Source: Acidaminococcus timonensis
GTDB lineage: Bacteria; Bacillota; Negativicutes; Acidaminococcales; Acidaminococcaceae
Direction of reading: 5' to 3'
Length of the DNA: 64,000 nt
Assembly (NCBI RefSeq): GCF_900106585.1
Contig: NZ_FNWH01000006.1
Coordinates: 1,054,001-1,118,000, forward strand
Position 1 is the first letter of the stretch. Each line of letters starts with the position of its first letter. Below the pieces are notes generated by a model that had not been told where the DNA came from, ran no database searches, and saw only the letters and a list, made by a program, of their open reading frames with translations. Shown here piece after piece: positions 8,860 through 59,445 of the stretch. The translations under genes and the position numbers were made by a program.

Positions 8860-9591
8860 TTACAAAATTTTCGACAGGAAACTCTGGGCCCGTTCGTTTT
8901 TGGGATGGGCGAAGAACTCTTTCGGGTCGCCCTGTTCCAGGATCTTGCCCCCGTCCAGGAACAGGATCCGGTCGCCCACTTCCCGGGCAAAGCCCATTTC
9001 GTGGGTCACCACCACCATGGTCATCCCTTCCTGGGCCAGGTTCTTCATTACGTCCAGCACTTCGTTGATCATTTCCGGATCCAGTGCGGACGTTGGTTCA
9101 TCGAACAGCATGGCCTTGGGTTTCATGCACAGGGCCCGGGCGATGGCCACCCGCTGCTGCTGACCGCCGGACAGGCTGGCCGGATAGGCATCCGCCTTGT
9201 TCAGCAGGCCCACCTTGTCCAGGTACTTTTTGGCATTTTCCACGGCTTCTTCCTTACTTTCGTGGCGCACAATGGTGGGTGCCAGGGTCAGGTTGTCCAT
9301 CACCGTCATATGGGGGAACAGGTTGAACTTCTGGAACACCATCCCCACTTCCTGCCGGACTTCGTTAATGTTGGCCTCTCCGTTCAGAGGGATGCCGTCG
9401 AAGGTAATGGTGCCGGCGGTGGGCACTTCCAGATAGTTCAGGCAGCGCAGGAACGTACTCTTACCGCCGCCGCTGGGGCCGATGACCACCACCACTTCCT
9501 GTTCTGCGATGGTCACGTCGATGCCTTTCAGGACCTGGTTGCTGCCGTAGCTTTTGTACAGGCCCTCCACTTTGATCATCTCATTGTTCAT
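8860..9591 (-). CDS. Polar amino-acid ABC transporter ATP-binding protein (GlnQ type)
   Basis: Cytoplasmic ATPase of an amino-acid importer. The 243 residues carry Walker [10 protein letters not shown], the signature LSGGQQQR and Walker [13 protein letters not shown], plus the D-loop and switch histidine THEMG found in GlnQ/HisP-type proteins. It overlaps the permease gene by 11 bp, and with the adjacent binding proteins forms one uptake system. The substrate, glutamate or glutamine versus another polar amino acid, cannot be decided from sequence. Confidence 0.93.
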
Positions 9592-13361: not shown

Positions 13362-13958
13362 ATGATCACCATACCCCAATTCCTGGATTTTCCCACGGAT
13401 ACAGATGCCAAAGAGGTCGTTTCCCTGTTCCTGCGGCTGCTGGAACTGAAAAACCATGACCTGTTCCTGCACAGCCAGCAGGTGGCCAATTATGCGGTGG
13501 CCACTGCGGCCAAGATGGGGCTGCCCCTGAATGAAGTGAACTGCATCAAGATGGCCGCCCTGCTCCACGACATTGGGCAGCTGGCCATCCCCAACACCAT
13601 CCTGGCCAAATACCCGTACTTCAATATCCGGGAACGGGCATCCTACCGGCGTCATTGCCTGGCCGGTGCCAGCATGCTGGAGAACATCCCGGCCTTTGAA
13701 CGGATCCGGAAGATCATTCTCCACCACCATGAGAACTGGGACGGAAGCGGGTATCCCAAGCGGCTGAAAGGGGTGAACATCCCCATCGGCAGCCGGATCA
13801 TTGCGGTATGCAACTTCTACGACCGGAAGTGCAACCCCTGTACCCGGCAATGGGTCATCGCCGGCAGCAAAAGTCCCCAGGTGATCCGGGACCTGGCAGG
13901 GATCAAGTTCGACCCGGATGTGGTCCAGGCTTTCTTTGAATCCATCAGCAATCTATGA
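13362..13958 (+). CDS. HD-GYP-like domain protein, possibly impaired
   Basis: HD-GYP proteins are metal-dependent phosphodiesterases that usually degrade cyclic di-GMP. The 198 residues show LLHDIGQL (HD at 69-70), HHHENWDGSGYP (121-132, with the GYP signature) and IPIGSRIIAV. The usual VADxYD metal aspartate reads VCNFYD (Asn151), and the following ALTSDRPYR stretch is replaced by an unusual Cys-containing sequence. So the fold is clear but activity is doubtful. It is a stand-alone domain with no sensor attached. The TSCPD gene follows 15 bases later, probably in the same transcript. Confidence 0.85.
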   Translation: MITIPQFLDFPTDTDAKEVVSLFLRLLELKNHDLFLHSQQVANYAVATAAKMGLPLNEVNCIKMAALLHDIGQLAIPNTILAKYPYFNIRERASYRRHCLAGASMLENIPAFERIRKIILHHHENWDGSGYPKRLKGVNIPIGSRIIAVCNFYDRKCNPCTRQWVIAGSKSPQVIRDLAGIKFDPDVVQAFFESISNL

Positions 13959-16384: not shown

Positions 16385-16481
16385 GCAACTCTCCTTTTAT
16401 GGTAATGACTTGTGCGTGCCTGCCGGAGGGTATTTTGCCTAAAGCAAAATCCGGACAGCGCCCTTACGGATGAGGATCGGC

Positions 16482-17664: not shown

Positions 17665-18291
17665 ATGGAACCCAATCCTGAACAAAAACAGCCGGAACAG
17701 CAGCCGGAAACAGAAAAAGCCGAAGAACCGGAAGTAATCGTCCCAGAAAAAGAAGAGCTGGAAGAGGAAGCCGCAGCGGAAGAGGCAGAAGAAACCGCAG
17801 AAGCCAAAACAGCCGAGCAGACGGACGCTGCCGCAGCCTCCGCCGAAAGCCAGACGGAACAGGCCGCCAAAGACGCCGAAGTGGTGGATCAGCCGGCAGA
17901 AGTACCGGAAAAGCCCCTGCTGCAGGCCAAACAGTCCCTGATGTATTTCTTCTGGCCCCTGATCCTGACCATCCTGTACGTGCCTGCGGGCGTCATCTGG
18001 ATCGCCGTCCGGTACCTGAAGTACAAATCCCAGGGCATGGTGCTCACCAACAAACGGCTGGTGATTTTGAAGGGTCTGTTCAAGAAGAAGCAGTTCATGT
18101 TCTCCCTGGACCTGGCCGCCAAAGCCATCGTCACCCAGGGCTTCCTGGGCAGAAAAGCCGGTTATGGTACTGTCAGCATCATCTACCAGAAAAAGGAATA
18201 TTCCTTCGACTACGTCCGGGATCCCCAGGCCTTCGTGGAAGCATGCAAGAAGGCGTATGAGGATACGCAGGACTCAGTCACTAGTCACTAG
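17665..18291 (+). CDS. PH-domain-like protein with acidic N-terminal tail
   Basis: Function unknown. Residues 1-85 are a low-complexity Glu/Ala/Gln-rich tail. A hydrophobic hairpin at about 92-117 could embed in the membrane. It is followed by a bacterial PH-like domain containing GMVLTNKRLVILKGLFKKK, the strand pattern of bPH2/YdbT proteins. A TATAAT -10 box lies at 17614-17619 and an AAAGGAG site precedes the ATG. The last residues VTSH and the TAG stop are encoded by the CACTAG repeat tract, so the C-terminus may have been changed by that repeat. Confidence 0.7.
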   Translation: MEPNPEQKQPEQQPETEKAEEPEVIVPEKEELEEEAAAEEAEETAEAKTAEQTDAAAASAESQTEQAAKDAEVVDQPAEVPEKPLLQAKQSLMYFFWPLILTILYVPAGVIWIAVRYLKYKSQGMVLTNKRLVILKGLFKKKQFMFSLDLAAKAIVTQGFLGRKAGYGTVSIIYQKKEYSFDYVRDPQAFVEACKKAYEDTQDSVTSH

Positions 18292-18308
18292 TTAACAGTC
18301 ACTAGCTA
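18275..18308. repeat. CACTAG-type short repeat tract
   Basis: Four imperfect copies of (AG)TCACTAG run from the last codons of the PH-domain gene into the intergenic space. Similar CACTA-unit tracts occur at 12106-12122, 41301-41327 and 52455-52486. Confidence 0.6.
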
Positions 18309-18310
18309 AA

Positions 18311-29153: not shown

Positions 29154-29984
29154 TCATTCCCTCACCAATCGATTGTACAATTCCCGTTTGGGTACTTTAT
29201 ACGCCTTGGCCACCTGGACCAGGGCTTCTTTTTTATCGGTACCCTGGGCGATCAGTTTTTTCACCGCGTCCAGGGGATCTCCCTGAGGCTCTTCTTTTTC
29301 CACTTTCCCCTGCTCCACCACCAGCACGAATTCACCCCGGATGGGTCCTTCCTGCAGATGCTGACGGCAGGTGGAAATGGTTCCCCGGAAGAACTCTTCG
29401 TGGAGCTTGGTCAGCTCCCGTCCCAGGGTCATTTTCCGGTCGCCCCACACCTCTTCCATATCCTGGAGCACATCCAGGATCCGGTGGGGTGCTTCATATA
29501 ACACCATCGTAGCCGGGATGTGCTTCCATTCCTCCAGCTTTTCCTTCCGGTTCTTCCGGCTCTTGGGCAGGAAGGCCCCGAAAAAGAACGGGGTGCTGGG
29601 CAGGCCGGAAGCCACCAGAGCGGTCAGGCAGGCATTGGCCCCGGGCACGGGCACCACCTGGATCCCCGCCGCAATGGCCTGCTGGGCGATCAGTTCCCCC
29701 GGGTCCGAAATCCCGGGGAACCCGGCATCCGTCACCAGAGCGATGTCCTTGCCATTTTCCAGGGCTTCCAGCAGCACCGGTCCCTGTTTTTCCTTGTTGT
29801 GTTCGTGGTAGCTGATCAGTTGCCCGTGGATCCCGAAATGGGTCAGCAGTTGCCGGGTGTGCCGGGTATCCTCGGCGGCGATCAGGTCCGCCTCCTGCAG
29901 CATCCGCACTGCCCTGGGCGTCATATCCTCCAGGTTGCCGATGGGCGTGGCACACAGGTACAGGGTGCCTTTTTCATTTTCCAT
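29154..29984 (-). CDS. rsmI: 16S rRNA (cytidine-1402 2'-O)-methyltransferase RsmI
   Basis: SAM-dependent SpoU-independent methylase that modifies the ribosomal P site. The 276 residues show the tetrapyrrole-methylase fold with LYLCATPIGNLEDMT, AEDTRHTRQLL, VTDAGFPGISDPG and FYEAP-type motif LYEAPHR. It overlaps trmN6 by 11 bp. The order ricT-trmN6-rsmI matches Bacillus yaaT-yabB-yabC. Confidence 0.95.
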   Translation of the reverse strand: MENEKGTLYLCATPIGNLEDMTPRAVRMLQEADLIAAEDTRHTRQLLTHFGIHGQLISYHEHNKEKQGPVLLEALENGKDIALVTDAGFPGISDPGELIAQQAIAAGIQVVPVPGANACLTALVASGLPSTPFFFGAFLPKSRKNRKEKLEEWKHIPATMVLYEAPHRILDVLQDMEEVWGDRKMTLGRELTKLHEEFFRGTISTCRQHLQEGPIRGEFVLVVEQGKVEKEEPQGDPLDAVKKLIAQGTDKKEALVQVAKAYKVPKRELYNRLVRE

Positions 29985-30705
29985 GTTCTTCTGCCTCTTC
30001 TTTCCCGTAATAAACCAGTGTCTGCCGGCTGTAGCTGCCGTCTCTGTTATACATGATGAGGGGCGGCAATACCTCCAGTCCGGGCCGTCCGCCCTTCACG
30101 AATTCTGCCAGGAAGATCCAGGCGGGCCGGTCCACATAACTGTGGACCCACTGCAGCCGTTTCAGTTCCAGGTTGTACGTAAGCCCCAGCTTCACCGCAT
30201 CGGTGAACCGTTCAGGCAGCTGCACCAGGGCGAACCGGCCCTTTGTCTTCAGGGCGTAGGCCGCCGCCCGGAAAAAATCCTCCAGGGTTGTCCCCACTTC
30301 ATGACAGGCCGCCTGCCCCACCTGCCGCTTCCGGCCTCCGATGCGGTAGGGCGGATTGGCCGCCACCAGATCCATGGCGTCACAGGGAAGTTCTTTGTAG
30401 TTCCGCAGGTCCAGCGCCCTGGCCTCCACCCGGTCCTCCAGGTGGTTGTCCAGGATGCTCCGCTGCAGCAGCTCCACCACATGGGCGTTGATGTCCACCC
30501 CAAGCACCTGTGCCGCACCCCGGTTGGCCAGAAGCAGGCTCACAGCCCCGGTGCCGCAGCCCAGCTCCAGCACCTTCGCCTTCTTCGCCAGATGGGGAAA
30601 GGCTGCCAGGAACACGGCATCCGTGGTGAAGCAGAACTCTTTTGCGTCCTGCCAGATGGTGGTCACGCCGTCAGGCAGGCAGTCCTGCCGAAGGGTCTCC
30701 CTCAT
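29974..30705 (-). CDS. tRNA1(Val) adenine-37 N6-methyltransferase family (TrmN6/YabB-like)
   Basis: Class I SAM methyltransferase. The 243 residues have the SAM-binding LELGCGTGAVSLLL motif near residue 47 and the amino-methylase motif NPPYR near 115. This combination is typical of TrmN6/YfiC and Bacillus YabB. It overlaps ricT by 4 bp and rsmI by 11 bp. The exact tRNA substrate in this organism is inferred from family membership. Confidence 0.88.
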   Translation of the reverse strand: MRETLRQDCLPDGVTTIWQDAKEFCFTTDAVFLAAFPHLAKKAKVLELGCGTGAVSLLLANRGAAQVLGVDINAHVVELLQRSILDNHLEDRVEARALDLRNYKELPCDAMDLVAANPPYRIGGRKRQVGQAACHEVGTTLEDFFRAAAYALKTKGRFALVQLPERFTDAVKLGLTYNLELKRLQWVHSYVDRPAWIFLAEFVKGGRPGLEVLPPLIMYNRDGSYSRQTLVYYGKEEAEEHGK

Positions 30706-31547
30706 TTTTTCTCCACTTTCGCCGCTTCCATGACCTCATCCCAGGCCACGGTCACCCGGTTGCCCGGAGAAACCTCCACGGTCACGGTCTGTTCTCTCCG
30801 GCTGATGCTCATGATCATCCCTTCCCCGCTGGGGGTCACCACCTTCATGCCCGGCCGGGGCACAAAATGGTGTTCCTTTTTCTTGTCCCGTTTCTTGCAG
30901 CATTTTCCGCAGTACATGTCGCTTTCATACTTCAGGCAGCACAGCAGGCGGCCGCAGATGCCGGAAATCTTGGTGGGATTCAGGGACAGGTTCTGTTCCT
31001 TGGCCATTTTAATGGATACCGGTTCAAAATCCCCCAGGAAGGTGGCACAGCACAGGGGACGCCCGCAGCAGCCGATGCCGCCCAGCATCTTTGCCTCGTC
31101 CCGGACGCCGATCTGCCGCAATTCGATGCGGGTGCGGAACACGGCGGCCAGGTCTTTGACCAGTTCCCGGAAGTCGATGCGCCCGTCGGCGGTAAAGTAA
31201 AAAATAATTTTGCCCACGTCAAAGGTGTATTCCACGTTCACCAGATGCATGGCCAGTTTCCGGGCCGCAATCTTCTTTTCGCAGATGACGAAGGCCTCTT
31301 TTTCTTTCCGGTGGTTCTCCTCCACCTTCCGGGCGTCCGCTTCGGTGGCTACCCGGATCACGGTCTTCAGGGGAGACACGATCTTGCTGTCCTCCACTTC
31401 CTGCTGAGGGATCATCACTTCCCCGTATTCAATGCCCCGGGCCGTTTCCACGATTACGTGGTCCCCCTTCTCCAGGTGGTATTCCCCCGGAGAGAAATAG
31501 TAGATTTTACCGGCTCTCTTGAACCGGACTCCAACGATGGTTTCCAT
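30702..31547 (-). CDS. ricT: PSP1 domain protein RicT (YaaT)
   Basis: In Bacillus RicT works with RicA and RicF in mRNA maturation with RNase Y and influences sporulation and competence. The 281 residues contain the PSP1 domain, with the cysteine motifs GGIGCCGRPLCCATFL and CGRLLCCLKYES. Further Cys residues (CGKCCKK) are likely ligands for the iron-sulfur cluster known in this family. It lies between holB and trmN6. RicA and RicF homologues are not in the window. Confidence 0.93.
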   Translation of the reverse strand: METIVGVRFKRAGKIYYFSPGEYHLEKGDHVIVETARGIEYGEVMIPQQEVEDSKIVSPLKTVIRVATEADARKVEENHRKEKEAFVICEKKIAARKLAMHLVNVEYTFDVGKIIFYFTADGRIDFRELVKDLAAVFRTRIELRQIGVRDEAKMLGGIGCCGRPLCCATFLGDFEPVSIKMAKEQNLSLNPTKISGICGRLLCCLKYESDMYCGKCCKKRDKKKEHHFVPRPGMKVVTPSGEGMIMSISRREQTVTVEVSPGNRVTVAWDEVMEAAKVEKK

Positions 31548-31568: not shown

Positions 31569-32609
31569 TCAACTGTGCAATTGATGGATTTCCAAAAACA
31601 GGCCTTCCAGGGCCAGCCGCCGGCTGACAAAGGATCCGATGGCCTGCCGGGCTTCTTCCCCCAGTTCCATGGCCCGGCGCACCTGGGGCTCGGTCCAGTC
31701 GGTGAAAAACAGGCCCAGCCGCTGGCGCAGATCTTCATTGTATAGGGGCTGGGGCAGTCCCATGGTCAAAAACAGGCCGTCCCGCAGCAGCAGCAGCAGC
31801 AGTTCCATAAGCACCAGGCCTTCTGCCCGGTCATTCTTCGTCAGCCAGGGCAGGCCACTGGTATACACCAGCAGGTCGTCCCGGCCAGATTGTTCCAGAA
31901 GGTCCAGCATCTCTTCCCGCAGGGTCAGGGCGTCCAGTCGGAACCATTCCAGGGCCTTCCCGGCCGAACCTCCGGCCAGACGGGCCAGGACGGGCCTCTG
32001 CTGCCGCCACCGGTCCTGCACTGCGTCCTGGGACACATCGGCCAGGGCAGCCGGCCGGCAGTCTTCCGGTACGGTGATGGTCTCCAGCACCTGCTCCGTC
32101 TCTTTCTCAGAAAGAGGATCGAACCGCAGCTCGATGAGCCGGCTGCGGATGGTGGGCAGCAGCCATTCCACCTGGTCCGCCACCAGCAGGAACAGCCAGA
32201 AGTCCGGCGGTTCCTCCAGCAGCTTGAGCAGGCTGTTCTGGGCCTCTTCCCGCATGGTATGGGCCTGGTCGATGAGGCACACCTTGTATCTGGACAGCCG
32301 GGGCCCGAAGGCTGCCTGGGCCGACAGGGCATGGATGGCGTCCACACCGATGCCTTTGCTTTTGCCCGAAGGCCCCACCTCCAGGAAATCCGGGTGGGCG
32401 TCCGCCTCCATGGCCCGGCAGCTGGCGCAGTGGCAGGGCACAAACGGGTCCCCGGTGCACAAAAAGCTCCTGCTGAAGGCCCGGGCCAGCTTTTTCTTGC
32501 CGATGCCCTCCGGCCCGTAGAACAGCAGGGACGGCGTCTTCCGCTCTCCCTTCAGCATATTCTGCAGGAATTCTTTTTCGGTTCGGTGTCCAATGATGGT
32601 ATCCCACAT
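31569..32609 (-). CDS. holB: DNA polymerase III subunit delta'
   Basis: Clamp-loader subunit that helps place the sliding clamp on DNA. The 346 residues start with the RFC-like box WDTIIGHRTEKEFL. The P-loop GPEGIGKKKLAR lacks the usual Thr/Ser, as expected for a non-ATP-binding delta'. A zinc knuckle (C-x8-C-x-C-x2-C type around residue 52) is present. It lies between tmk and ricT as in Bacillus, without the intervening yaaQ and yaaR genes. Confidence 0.92.
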   Translation of the reverse strand: MWDTIIGHRTEKEFLQNMLKGERKTPSLLFYGPEGIGKKKLARAFSRSFLCTGDPFVPCHCASCRAMEADAHPDFLEVGPSGKSKGIGVDAIHALSAQAAFGPRLSRYKVCLIDQAHTMREEAQNSLLKLLEEPPDFWLFLLVADQVEWLLPTIRSRLIELRFDPLSEKETEQVLETITVPEDCRPAALADVSQDAVQDRWRQQRPVLARLAGGSAGKALEWFRLDALTLREEMLDLLEQSGRDDLLVYTSGLPWLTKNDRAEGLVLMELLLLLLRDGLFLTMGLPQPLYNEDLRQRLGLFFTDWTEPQVRRAMELGEEARQAIGSFVSRRLALEGLFLEIHQLHS

Positions 32610-32639: not shown

Positions 32640-33260
32640 TCAGACCAGCCCTTCCAGTTTCTTGATGATTTCTTCCATGACCACTTCCGGGTCCCGGGTG
32701 GCGTCCACCACCAGGATCCGATCCGGTTCCTCCTGGGCCAGCTGCAGGTAACCCGCCCGCACGGCGTCGTGGAATTCCAGCCCCTGGAGCTCGAACTTGT
32801 CCACCACACCCCGTTCGTTCCGACGTTGCAGCAGCACCCGGGGGTCCCCATCCAGAAGGATGGTCACGTCCGGACGCAGCCCCCCTGTGGAAAAATCGTT
32901 CAGTTTCCGCAGCCGGGCCAGGTCCATGTGGCGCAGAATGCCCTGGTACACCAGGGTGGAATCGCTGAACCGGTCACAGAGTACCACTTTTCCCTCTGCC
33001 AGGGCCGGACGGATTACCTTGTCCACATGATCTGCCCGGGCCGCCAGGTGCAGCAGGGTCTCCGTCTGGGCCGAAATGGCATAGGCCGGGTCCAGCACCA
33101 GTTCCCGGATCCGTTCCGCCGCATCGGTGCCCCCGGGTTCCCGGGTCAGCACCACCTGACGGCCGTACAATCTGAACCAGTCCACCAGTTTATGGGCCTG
33201 GGTGGTCTTGCCGCCCCCGTCGGGCCCTTCCAGGGTAATGAACAAACCTTTTTTCTTCAT
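32640..33260 (-). CDS. tmk: Thymidylate kinase
   Basis: Phosphorylates dTMP to dTDP. The 206 residues have the P-loop LEGPDGGGKTTQAHKL, the substrate motif TREPGGTDAAERIR and DRFSDSTLVYQG, all typical. It overlaps the end of the decarboxylase gene by 4 bp, so its translation may depend partly on upstream reading. The frameshift in that neighbour could therefore lower tmk translation unless the downstream fragment is re-initiated. Confidence 0.95.
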   Translation of the reverse strand: MKKKGLFITLEGPDGGGKTTQAHKLVDWFRLYGRQVVLTREPGGTDAAERIRELVLDPAYAISAQTETLLHLAARADHVDKVIRPALAEGKVVLCDRFSDSTLVYQGILRHMDLARLRKLNDFSTGGLRPDVTILLDGDPRVLLQRRNERGVVDKFELQGLEFHDAVRAGYLQLAQEEPDRILVVDATRDPEVVMEEIIKKLEGLV

Positions 33261-34733
33261 ACCAATACCTCGAATGTCTGCAGGGAGGGGTCCCGGGGCC
33301 CGCTCACCTGGAGTCTTTTTTCCTGCAGCTGCAGGCTGAAGGCGATGAGTTCTTTTGTCAGCCGTTCTCCCGGCATGATCAGGGGGATCCCCGGCGGGTA
33401 GAAGCTCAGGGTCTCGCCAGCCACCCGTCCGGCTGCTTCCCGGAAGGACACCCTTTCCTTGGGGGCGAAGAACGCCTCCCGGGGTGTCAGCACCTGTTCC
33501 GGTATGGAGAGCACCGGTGGTACAGGCGGCAGATCCCGCCGGGGTTTCCGCATTTTTTCCAGCACTGTGGCGATGCGCTGAGCAATGGCCGGAAATTCCG
33601 GATTATCGTCCGCATAGGTCACCAGGAAGAGCACATGATCCTGGTCCACCAGTTCCACGGCGATGCCGGCCCGGCGCAGCGCATCGGCCGCTTCCGGTCC
33701 GGTGATGCCCAGCCGGCTCACCTGGATGGTCACCTTTCCCGGATCCAGGGCCACTACGCCGCCCCTGCCGTTCAGTTCCTTTTCCAGCACCGGCAGCCCG
33801 GGCACCCGGTGCAGCGCTTTCCGCAGGACGGTTGCCGCCCGTACGGACGCGGCCGCCATGGCTTGCCGCCCGTACGGACGCGGCCGCCATGGCGGCCCCT
33901 TTTTCAGCCAGCTGGGCCCGGGCCCCGTCCAGGGCCCCCATCAGCAAATAGTTGGGGCTGGTGGTGGTCACCAGGCTCATGGCCTGCTCCATGGCCTCCG
34001 GCCGCAGGCGTCCATAGCGCACCTGCAGCAGGCTGCACTGAGTCATGGCCCCCACGATCTTGTGGGTGCTCTGGGCCGCCGCATCCGCTCCGCACTCCAT
34101 GGCGCCGGGAGGCAGCAGGTCGGAAAAGCCCAGATGGGGTCCGTGGGCCTCGTCCACCAGCAGCACGGCGCCGTGCCCATGGGCGATTTCTGCAATCCGT
34201 TTCGTATCCGCAGCCAGGCCAAAATAGTTGGGCGTGGTCAGGAAGACAGCCTTCAGGTCCGGGTGCCGGGCAAAGGCCGCCTCCACCTGTTCCGGGCTCA
34301 ATTGCAGGATGAGACGCCATTGTTCGTCATAGGCCGGCTGTACATACACCGGTTCCAGCCCTGCCAGGATCAGTCCCCCCAGTACGCTGCGGTGGCTGTT
34401 CCGGGGCACCAGGATCCGGTCTCCGGGCCGCAGGGCGCCCAGCAGCATGCCGTGGATCACCCCGGTGGTCCCGTTCACCCCCAGAAAGCACCTGTCGGAA
34501 CCATAGACTTCGGCAGCCAGTTTCTCTGCCTCCCGGATGCACCCTTCCGGATGGTGGATGTCATCCAGTTCCTCCATCAAACTGACATCGCTTTCCAGGG
34601 CCACGTCCCCCACCAGATGGCGCAGGGCCGGGTCCGCTCCCCTTCCCCCCTTGTGTCCGGGGGTATGGAGAGGATATACATGAGACTGACGGTAGGTTTC
34701 CACTGCCGTCAGAAGGGGTCGTTTCACAGTCAC
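33257..34733 (-). pseudogene. Orn/Lys/Arg decarboxylase (YaaO/SpeA-like), frame broken by a tandem duplication
   Basis: PLP enzymes of this family make cadaverine, putrescine or agmatine. Reading from 34733 gives HTPGHKGG, the aspartate-containing VLLVDEAHGPHLGF and the PLP lysine motif STHKIVGAMTQ. The frame then leaves homology at a 31-bp duplication and stops at 33603. The C-terminal domain (GIAVELVDQDHVLFLVTYAD, FYPPGIPLIMPGERL) continues in another frame down to 33257 and could restart at an ATG inside the second repeat. Removing one repeat copy restores one continuous reading frame. In Negativicutes cadaverine or putrescine decorates peptidoglycan, so the loss may matter. Confidence 0.9.
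33832..33893. repeat. Perfect 31-bp tandem duplication inside the decarboxylase gene
   Basis: Copies at 33832-33862 and 33863-33893 are identical. As 31 is not a multiple of 3, two copies break the reading frame and one copy restores it exactly (the residues around the repeat read MAAASVRAATVLRKA). Confidence 0.97.
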
Positions 34734-40614: not shown

Positions 40615-41289
40615 CTAATTGCTGCTGGCCAGGGCCAGGCCGTACACTTTTTGGACCCCGCCCTGCTTCAGCACCCTGGCCGCCTCCTCCAGGGTGGCGC
40701 CGGTGGTGCAGATGTCATCGCACAGGAGCACGATGTCCGGCATCAAAGCTTCAGGTGCCAGGGCAAAGCAGCCCCGGATGTTCTCTTTCCGTTCCGCCGG
40801 TGTCAGGCTGAACTGGGGCCGGGTAGGCCGCACCCTCTGCAACAGCGGAGCCCACCGGTACCCGTTTTTCAGGGCCCAAGGCCGGAAGATCTCTTCGGGC
40901 ACATCGTAGCTCCGCTGTTTCCGCCGGGCCGGATCCGTGGGAATGGCCGTCACCCCAAGGTCCACCTCTGCCGGCAGCTGCCAGGCAAAGCGCCCCTCCT
41001 GCGCCACCCCTGCCTGCCACTCCCGGGCCAGCCGGGGCAGCAGGTCTTCTCTTTTTTCGAATTTTGTCTTGTGCAGGGCCTCCTGGATGGCCCCGGCATA
41101 GTCGAACAGAAAAAACAACCCGTCCAGATGGGGGCACCCCAGGCTGTCCGGGTGAAAGGGCCGGGGATGGTACACTCCCTCCCGGCACCGGTCGCACAGA
41201 GCCAGAGGGCCGGGAACCGGTTCCCCGCAGCCCGGGCAGTTGTGGGGGTAGAACAGGTCGGAGAGAAGGGAAAACAAGGTCGATAACAT
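40615..41289 (-). CDS. comF: ComF family phosphoribosyltransferase-like protein
   Basis: ComF proteins help take up single-stranded DNA in competent bacteria. The 224 residues have an N-terminal zinc-ribbon (CPGCGEP...CDRC) and a C-terminal PRTase motif LLCDDICTTGATLEEA. The ATG at 41289 has a GGAGG site 4 bases upstream; the longer reading to 41349 runs through a repeat tract and is rejected. recD2 lies upstream with about 130 bases of repeats between them. Confidence 0.92.
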   Translation of the reverse strand: MLSTLFSLLSDLFYPHNCPGCGEPVPGPLALCDRCREGVYHPRPFHPDSLGCPHLDGLFFLFDYAGAIQEALHKTKFEKREDLLPRLAREWQAGVAQEGRFAWQLPAEVDLGVTAIPTDPARRKQRSYDVPEEIFRPWALKNGYRWAPLLQRVRPTRPQFSLTPAERKENIRGCFALAPEALMPDIVLLCDDICTTGATLEEAARVLKQGGVQKVYGLALASSN

Positions 41290-41300
41290 GGTTTCCTCCA

Positions 41301-41327
41301 GTGGATAGTGGTTAGTGGTTAGTGATA
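41301..41327. repeat. CACTAACC-type short repeat tract
   Basis: On the minus strand CACTAACC is repeated twice and followed by CACTATCC, just upstream of comF. Related to the tracts at 18275-18308 and 52455-52486. Confidence 0.6.
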
Positions 41328-41334
41328 ATGCTGC

Positions 41335-41360
41335 GTAGGGACGACCCATAAGGGGCGTCC
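41335..41360. repeat. Dispersed palindromic repeat unit
   Basis: GTAGGGACG-ACCCATAAGGGG-CGTCC. The reverse complement of 8758-8783 matches 24 of 26 bases. It lies in the 132-base recD2-comF gap, which otherwise shows no gene. Confidence 0.7.
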
Positions 41361-58242: not shown

Positions 58243-59445
58243 TTAAAGTTTCATGATAAATGCCAACACGAAATACGGTGGCATATTGTTATGGGGCTGG
58301 TTGCCGCCTGTTGGTTCCGTGGTTCGGAGAAGCCCTTTTGTGGCACCTTTGGTGCCTGCGTCAACAAGCCAGGCATTATCCTTGGCGGTCCCGTTCTTTG
58401 TCGTGTCAAGATAGAAATTGTGGCTATGTGCGGGAATGTTTTCCTTTATCAGCGTTACGCTTGCTTCCCCGCCCGTTGTCCCGTTGTTCGTCCCGTCCCC
58501 GCCGAAAATGAAGCGATTACGCAAGTCGGGTGTTCCGTTCGTGCCGTCGCACAAGTGCCACTCCTTATTTACCAGCCCCGTGTTTTTATCAATCGGGTAG
58601 CCGTCTTTAAACGTCCCGGAAAACGCCGTTACGGTTCCGGGCAATACCCTCGCTTCCTGCTTTGTGGCGTAGGTGCTTTCGGCTTCTGTGCTGTTCAGCT
58701 TCTTGGCCAGTTCCGCCGTCACGGTGGCCGCAAAGTTGGAATCGTTGCCCAGAGCCTTTGCCAGCTCGTTCAGTGTGTTAAGCTGGTCGGGTGCGCCGTT
58801 GACAAGGGCGGAGATGGATTTGGACACGAACTCCGTGTTGGCAATGGCTTTGCTGCTGTTGCCAGCGTTGGCCGTGGGGACAGAGGTTGTGCCGGTAATC
58901 GTGACGTTGGTTAACGTGCTGTTGGTCGCCGTTAACGTTGTAACCTTCCCCGTCGCTGTGGTCACGCTGGATGCAAGGGCGGATTTTGTAACGTACGTGT
59001 TGACAATGTTATTTCCGCTCCCGTCTGCAACGGCCTTGTCGGCCGTGCCCGTGACGTTGCCGGTTACATCCCCGTTTACATTACCGTTTACATTACCGGT
59101 TAAATTACCTGTAACGTCGCCGGTTACATTGCCAGTTACATCTCCGGTTACGTTGCCGGTCAACGGGCCGTTTAGGGCGTCGGCTGTCAAAGTGCCAGCT
59201 TTAACCGTCGTTGCCGTTAGGTTGGTAATGGTTCCCGTCTTGCCGGTAATCGTTTCCGTGTTGATTTCCCCACCGGTTCCGCCCATGGTGTTGTTGTAGA
59301 GATACATCAAGTTGTTATTGATGTAGTCCAAAACGCCGTCATTCGTCGAGTTAACCAATGGGGACTCTTTGCCGTATGTCCCCGCCTGGATAATGCTATC
59401 GTTTGCGTCCCGGATTTCCGGTAGCTGGAATGTCGTTTGCTTCAT
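58243..59445 (-). CDS. Phage tail fibre with NVTG repeats and C-terminal collar domain
   Basis: Receptor-binding or baseplate fibre. The 400 residues begin with a virion-attaching end. Nine tetrapeptide repeats (NVTG, DVTG, NLTG, NVNG) at about 94-131 likely form a trimeric stalk. The C-terminus (about 270-400) holds a phage tail collar domain with HLCDGTNGTPDLRNRFIFGG and AHSHNFYLD. A GGAGGAAG site precedes the ATG. The lysis genes follow 16 bases later. Confidence 0.88.
   Translation of the reverse strand: MKQTTFQLPEIRDANDSIIQAGTYGKESPLVNSTNDGVLDYINNNLMYLYNNTMGGTGGEINTETITGKTGTITNLTATTVKAGTLTADALNGPLTGNVTGDVTGNVTGDVTGNLTGNVNGNVNGDVTGNVTGTADKAVADGSGNNIVNTYVTKSALASSVTTATGKVTTLTATNSTLTNVTITGTTSVPTANAGNSSKAIANTEFVSKSISALVNGAPDQLNTLNELAKALGNDSNFAATVTAELAKKLNSTEAESTYATKQEARVLPGTVTAFSGTFKDGYPIDKNTGLVNKEWHLCDGTNGTPDLRNRFIFGGDGTNNGTTGGEASVTLIKENIPAHSHNFYLDTTKNGTAKDNAWLVDAGTKGATKGLLRTTEPTGGNQPHNNMPPYFVLAFIMKL

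Follow-up and report, generated by a model that had tools for sequence, protein, structure and literature searches.

The yaaO-type gene of the sequenced Acidaminococcus timonensis is interrupted by a perfect 31-bp tandem duplication, and this most probably reflects one recent mutation in the sequenced strain (or culture) that duplicated 31 bp and generated a frameshift null allele. In the window, meaning the whole stretch of 64,000 nucleotides that was analysed, positions 33832–33862 and 33863–33893 are identical 31-mers (TTGCCGCCCGTACGGACGCGGCCGCCATGGC on the plus strand, 0 differences), confirming a duplication that an earlier note had reported from the letters of the sequence. The tandem stretch is exactly 62 nt and the flanking bases add nothing to it (excess 0), so flanking microhomology is absent. 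When up to three mismatches were allowed, the 31-mer had 2 matches in the window and 0 in 100 dinucleotide shuffles, which rules out a chance repeat, and the 62-mer (double unit) had a single match across the 2,297,059 bases of the genome. The viral contigs searched for the 31-bp unit contained no stretch matching it. Because the unit length is 1 modulo 3, the copy number alters the reading frame. The gene, its two frames and the two copies are as follows.

33257–34733, minus strand: whole yaaO-type gene, of the AAT-fold Orn/Lys/Arg decarboxylase family, broken by the duplication
33603–34733, minus strand: frame open from GTG, 376 aa, comprising 290 native residues (most of PF01276, with STHK) and 86 frameshifted residues
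33257–33859, minus strand: detached downstream frame of 200 aa, from an ATG within the second copy, comprising the end of PF01276 and the PF03711 C-terminal domain
33832–33862, minus strand: 31-bp copy towards the 3' end of the gene, which holds an ATG (33859–33857) in the native downstream frame
33863–33893, minus strand: 31-bp copy towards the 5' end of the gene, comprising codons 281–290 of the native frame plus one base

The start codon is a GTG at 34733 on the minus strand, found after a GGAGG-type ribosome site identified by eye. The frame opened there has 290 native codons followed by 86 foreign ones and ends with a stop at 33603–33605. The one-copy reading has 481 codons, ends at 33257 and contains no stop downstream of the break. 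The frameshift that had been claimed, which falls after codon 290 of 481, and the description of the gene as otherwise intact were therefore both borne out. The first frame includes PF01276 above the cut-off (profile positions 2–308 of 417, the PLP-binding major domain), with STHK, which we take to be the PLP-lysine motif, at residues 222–225, upstream of the break. In the detached frame PF03711 is above the cut-off and the end of PF01276, taken alone, is below it. Among solved structures the first frame is closest to 2x3l, a 446-residue member of the Orn/Lys/Arg decarboxylase family; it matches residues 2–258 of this protein, and the detached frame matches residues 292–436. The break cuts the major domain itself and not the junction of two domains, and about 40% of the enzyme is lost from the 376-aa product. 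Judged by its domain content, a truncated YaaO that lacks the end of the major domain and has none of the C-terminal domain should be inactive.

Assignment to YaaO is supported by the presence of both PF01276 and PF03711, one in each frame, and by a size of 481 codons in the one-copy reading with no N-terminal receiver wing; YaaO proteins without this wing are about 480–490 aa long (PMC8503589, partial text). In the Firmicutes SpeA/YaaO pair, YaaO is the member upstream of tmk, according to the same portion of that paper. The gene therefore resembles the ancestral-form AAT-fold decarboxylases described there in its domains and length, in its position directly upstream of tmk and in having a paralogue elsewhere in the genome, and differs from its YaaO/SpeA relatives in being frameshifted, whereas the related frames examined are open. 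The genes that follow are all on the same strand.

32640–33260, minus strand: tmk (dTMP kinase), the start codon of which overlaps the yaaO stop
31569–32609, minus strand: holB-like gene, PF13177 above the cut-off, TIGR00678 holB model at 167 bits against a cut-off of 181
30702–31547, minus strand: ricT/yaaT
29974–30705, minus strand: methyltransferase, PF05175, for which the TrmN model is the best in NCBIfam and far below its cut-off

The yaaO stop and the tmk start share the sequence ATGA at 33260–33257, in agreement with the overlap noted earlier. A GAGGT Shine-Dalgarno-like sequence was identified by eye ahead of the tmk ATG, and tmk is for this reason probably still translated. In all eight congeners tmk lies downstream of yaaO, as it does in 54 of 80 related loci (the best 80 of 100), in two of those 54 at a distance of more than 300 bp. 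The remaining 26 of these 80 had no tmk match downstream, and 5 of the 26 have less than 1 kb of downstream sequence.

Copy number at the site was examined in a genus set of nine Acidaminococcus genomes, including the sequenced one, the eight congeners each being another species. The protein part upstream of the break was used as the query in a scan for relatives, which gave 100 loci; the 80 best of these were retained. Together with the 8 congener loci these made 88 rows, and as six congeners appeared twice, 82 distinct loci. A single open frame crossing the break position and reaching at least the equivalent of residue 400 was found in 88/88 rows and in all 82 distinct loci (from the best 80 of 100 and the 8 congeners); one of the 88 (L044) was ended by the end of its contig. 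In the congener alignments exactly 31 bp were missing relative to the sequenced genome in every case (8/8), so each has a single copy, and no repeat with varying copy number was found among these eight, each from a different species. One copy in all congeners, together with the open frames in the related rows, indicates that the duplication is a derived state, found in this set only in the sequenced genome. The situation that had been named as counting against the earlier interpretation, namely relatives with two copies and further decay of the gene, was not encountered: the congeners have one copy, the distinct loci are open and decay is not evident.

The age of the duplication was approached by counting substitutions by codon position, upstream of the break in codons 3–280 and downstream from codon 292, with the codons between omitted. 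Compared with congener G002, the ratio of changes at positions 1 and 2 to changes at position 3 in the downstream part was 0.48 for the sequenced genome and 0.50, 0.46 and 0.52 for the intact congeners G004, G005 and G001, and the upstream values were 0.37 and 0.35, 0.32 and 0.36, respectively. Direct comparison of the sequenced genome with G004, G005 and G001 gave ratios of 0.49–0.52 downstream and 0.32–0.35 upstream, which would be compatible with a slight relaxation downstream. Among themselves these three gave 0.30–0.33 downstream and 0.14–0.24 upstream, but they are nearer kin of each other and not a clean control. At otherwise invariant residues the sequenced genome has changes at 3/74 positions downstream versus 0/161 upstream. 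The same lean was seen in G008 (6/80 versus 3/164), G002 (7/81 versus 8/169) and G006 (3/77 versus 3/164), and the other five congeners showed no clear lean. No stops were found in the 200 codons downstream of the break. Clear decay is absent, and the substitution pattern is one that also occurs between intact genes of comparable divergence. An old pseudogene was ruled out by the lack of a downstream stop and of clear decay in the codon substitutions. Three readings follow: the duplication happened very recently, the population frequently has the gene in its intact form, or there is in reality no second copy.

The last of these is the main rival to a young null allele, though we regard it as rather unlikely. 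The second copy would be an artefact of assembly or library preparation, arising either from a 31-base overlap left uncollapsed or from slippage of a polymerase on a GC-rich palindrome, and the gene of the strain would be intact. A stretch of precisely 2 x 31 nt that has no homology in its flanks is what an uncollapsed overlap is expected to leave, and 31 is a common k-mer length in assemblers. The site is GC-rich and palindromic, the downstream codons are without clear decay, and the duplication is absent from the 8 congeners and the 82 distinct related loci, all of which fit an artefact equally. However, a scan for perfect tandem repeats with units of 12–400 bp in 831,021 bases of the genome (36%) recovered no other with a 31-bp unit, and a recurrent 31-bp assembly signature is therefore absent from the 36% scanned. 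Zero excess is also not peculiar to this site, as it was found in two-copy repeats of 14 bp (L118), 18 bp (L111) and 21 bp (L099) elsewhere in the genome. The assembly is 99.91% complete in 6 contigs, with no N runs in the sampled 36% and with four full-length 16S genes, all inside contigs. The absence of N runs and the spanned rRNA genes suggest a finished or long-read assembly.

Within the sampled 36%, and leaving aside a 28-bp multiple of a 7-bp array, all units longer than 21 bp other than the 31-bp one have lengths divisible by 3; among shorter units there are some of 14 bp, which is not divisible by 3. The 80 relative loci (the best 80 of 100), which together span 653,661 bases, contained six perfect tandem repeats with units of at least 12 bp, and one of the six has a unit of at least 18 bp, which is a multiple of 3.

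Several other repeats were observed in this genome. An exact 14-bp duplication, again of frame-shifting length, is found at 13896–13923 in L118 and shares bases with the last part of a stop-to-stop frame of 455 codons. A family of 7-bp repeats (CACTAGC, CACTAGT or CACTAAC, and the reverse) forms short tandem arrays, located in the window at 18276–18309 and 41300–41324 and elsewhere at 9235–9321 in L099, 19736–19883 in L108 and 16424–16465 in L131. The first of the window arrays overlaps the last codons of the ORF at 17665–18291 and the other is at the start of the ORF at 40615–41349 (minus strand). The two-unit pattern had 61 matches in 33 arrays in the 831,021 bases and 0 in one mononucleotide shuffle, and the family had 0 matches in 18 short congener loci. 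It resembles the heptamer repeats of cyanobacteria. A perfect 54-bp unit (a multiple of 3) present in 2.9 copies at 16456–16610 in L121 perhaps belongs to a gene for a repetitive protein, and an imperfect 12/24-bp array (CCGGTTACATTA) with 75% matches and 8.4 copies of the 12-bp unit was seen at 59060–59160 in the window.

A young null allele needs an origin for the second copy, and one boundary of the duplication is marked by a palindrome.

33882–33897, no strand assigned: 16-bp perfect palindrome GGCCGCCATGGCGGCC over the duplication boundary 33893/33894, its sequence independent of the second copy

The palindrome is followed by T5 on the plus strand, and a terminator-like score was also obtained there. 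Perfect palindromes of at least 16 bp number 28 in the 831,021 bases, 5 of them in the window, and by after-the-fact arithmetic the chance of one falling across a zone of about 60 bp is about 0.2%. In the congeners, a shorter core at most was seen at this site by eye. A reasonable origin would be a replication fork that stalled at the boundary palindrome, with the nascent strand restarting 31 bp back. The hairpin step in such a scheme is weak, because the single-copy strand folds no better than shuffled sequence (z -0.52; 50 of 200 shuffles equal or better), and a strong single-copy hairpin as the cause is not supported by the same figures. The two-copy strand does fold stably (z -3.72 and -3.53), as a consequence of the duplication itself. 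Classical slippage between pre-existing short repeats was also discarded, given the lack of flanking microhomology and of any repeat in the congeners. Once formed, the tandem repeat may be lost again by slippage, which would make the null allele revertible in principle, and reversal by loss of one copy is plausible from the arrangement of the repeat. Direct repeats raise deletions about 1,000-fold in Mycobacterium smegmatis (PMC3519483, partial text).

Whether the two states alternate under selection is a separate question. In Streptococcus pneumoniae, Waite et al. are said to have described, in 2001 and 2003, spontaneous in-gene duplications leading to capsule phase variation (type 3 locus, cap8E, tts). 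The duplication in yaaO is of this already known kind, in that a copy gained within one reading frame inactivates the gene and loss of the copy would restore it. It differs in that the pneumococcal duplications are reversible and lie in capsule genes, according to portions of papers citing that work, whereas the duplication here lies in the gene of an intracellular enzyme and is known from one assembly. By analogy, a phase-variable switch would alternate by slippage, YaaO being on with one copy and off with two. The repeat is perfect and tandem, its unit is not a multiple of 3, and the lack of clear decay is as expected of a gene that is often on. Precedents are the reversible duplications in pneumococcal capsule genes (PMC4243769, partial text) and the deletion at high frequency of 101-bp tandem repeats in Escherichia coli (PMC8378479, partial text). 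Against this, all eight congeners lack the repeat and all 82 distinct loci have an open frame, and the yaaO product is not a surface factor but an intracellular enzyme encoded in a cluster of housekeeping genes. We consider such a switch improbable, and the evolved on/off control suggested by the earlier note was not supported, as no congener is repetitive at the site. Similarly little credence is given to an extended form, in which the duplication would be one state of a palindrome-promoted YaaO switch in Acidaminococcus populations, altering the modification of EF-P or some other process dependent on YaaO and, by way of coupling to tmk, possibly the level of dTMP kinase.

A search of the literature for Acidaminococcus and phase variation returned nothing on this subject by title. 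The word duplication is absent from the examined text portion of a paper on reversible frameshifts in Mycobacterium tuberculosis (PMC8339072), and the reversible kpsC frameshifts lie in a homopolymer (PMC13410964, partial text). It is very improbable that the gene is split and functional, with translation from the ATG in the second copy giving a C-terminal polypeptide of its own that would join the N-terminal polypeptide in one assembly. The 200-aa frame from the ATG at 33859 keeps the native frame and the rest of the protein without clear decay, but the ATG is preceded by what is, by eye, only a weak GGGCGG. Coupling is precluded because the upstream frame ends 254 bases past this ATG, the major domain itself is interrupted by the break, and none of the 82 distinct loci is split.

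If yaaO has been inactivated recently, what the cell would lose depends on the role of the enzyme. The outer membrane of Negativicutes is tethered to peptidoglycan carrying cadaverine or putrescine (PMC10628300, partial text), and the earlier note had proposed that YaaO may supply these diamines. This link was weakened by data from Bacillus subtilis and by the presence of other decarboxylases. When yaaO is deleted in B. subtilis, the polyamine content stays the same and EF-P modification is influenced (PMC8503589, partial text), and a yaaO mutant has defects in polyproline translation, with added cadaverine failing to restore the modification (PMC5885033, partial text). A second PF01276 protein (AAT-fold decarboxylase), with an open frame of 511 aa, lies directly before speE in the sequenced genome (G000:C4:125803-126747, L145) and is SpeA-like by neighbourhood. 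An extra PF01276 copy besides the one linked to tmk was detected in 7/9 Acidaminococcus genomes, the two in which none was found being G003 and G006. In addition, a protein with an intact frame in the sequenced genome has as its best solved match the lysine/ornithine decarboxylase 5gjm (E 1.2e-118), which we take to be the AR-fold enzyme of Selenomonas ruminantium. The citation given in the accessible part of PMC10628300 fits 5gjm as the S. ruminantium enzyme. Like 5gjm, the yaaO product belongs to the basic amino acid decarboxylases of Negativicutes, and a 5gjm homologue is present in the same genome; unlike 5gjm, yaaO is of a different fold and is a different gene. We infer that the 5gjm homologue is a better candidate than yaaO for supplying envelope diamines. 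Envelope diamine supply is not favoured as the role of yaaO, in view of the B. subtilis data and the two other decarboxylases in intact frames. Because these two are intact and YaaO, by analogy with B. subtilis, is not the supplier of polyamines, its loss may be tolerable.

Components of EF-P modification were sought in the same nine genomes. The EF-P loop HVKPGKGAAF was found in all nine, as were PF06838 and PF04260 (9/9 each), which presumably cover YnbB and YwlG, respectively. The hemL model, the sole probe for gsaB, was above its cut-off in 0/9 genomes, with weaker matches in 9/9. The YmfI model was above its cut-off in four of the nine, including the sequenced genome, where the match is FabG. 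On this FabG, the NCBIfam model EF_P_mod_YmfI scored 241 bits against a cut-off of 238 and FabG models scored up to 356 bits, and the gene sits between fabD and acpP (G000:C6:302524-303237, L195; 2503–3246 in L107). The EF_P_mod_YmfI assignment is likely to be false. On these model matches, the 5-aminopentanol modification pathway of B. subtilis type appears only partly recognisable in Acidaminococcus.

If real, the duplication is a clean example of one short duplication producing a revertible null allele beside an essential gene, and it shows that neither a pseudogene nor a switch should be called from a single assembly until the reads have been checked. For Acidaminococcus, the separate and intact frames of the 5gjm-type enzyme and of the AAT-fold decarboxylase beside speE argue against YaaO as the envelope polyamine enzyme.
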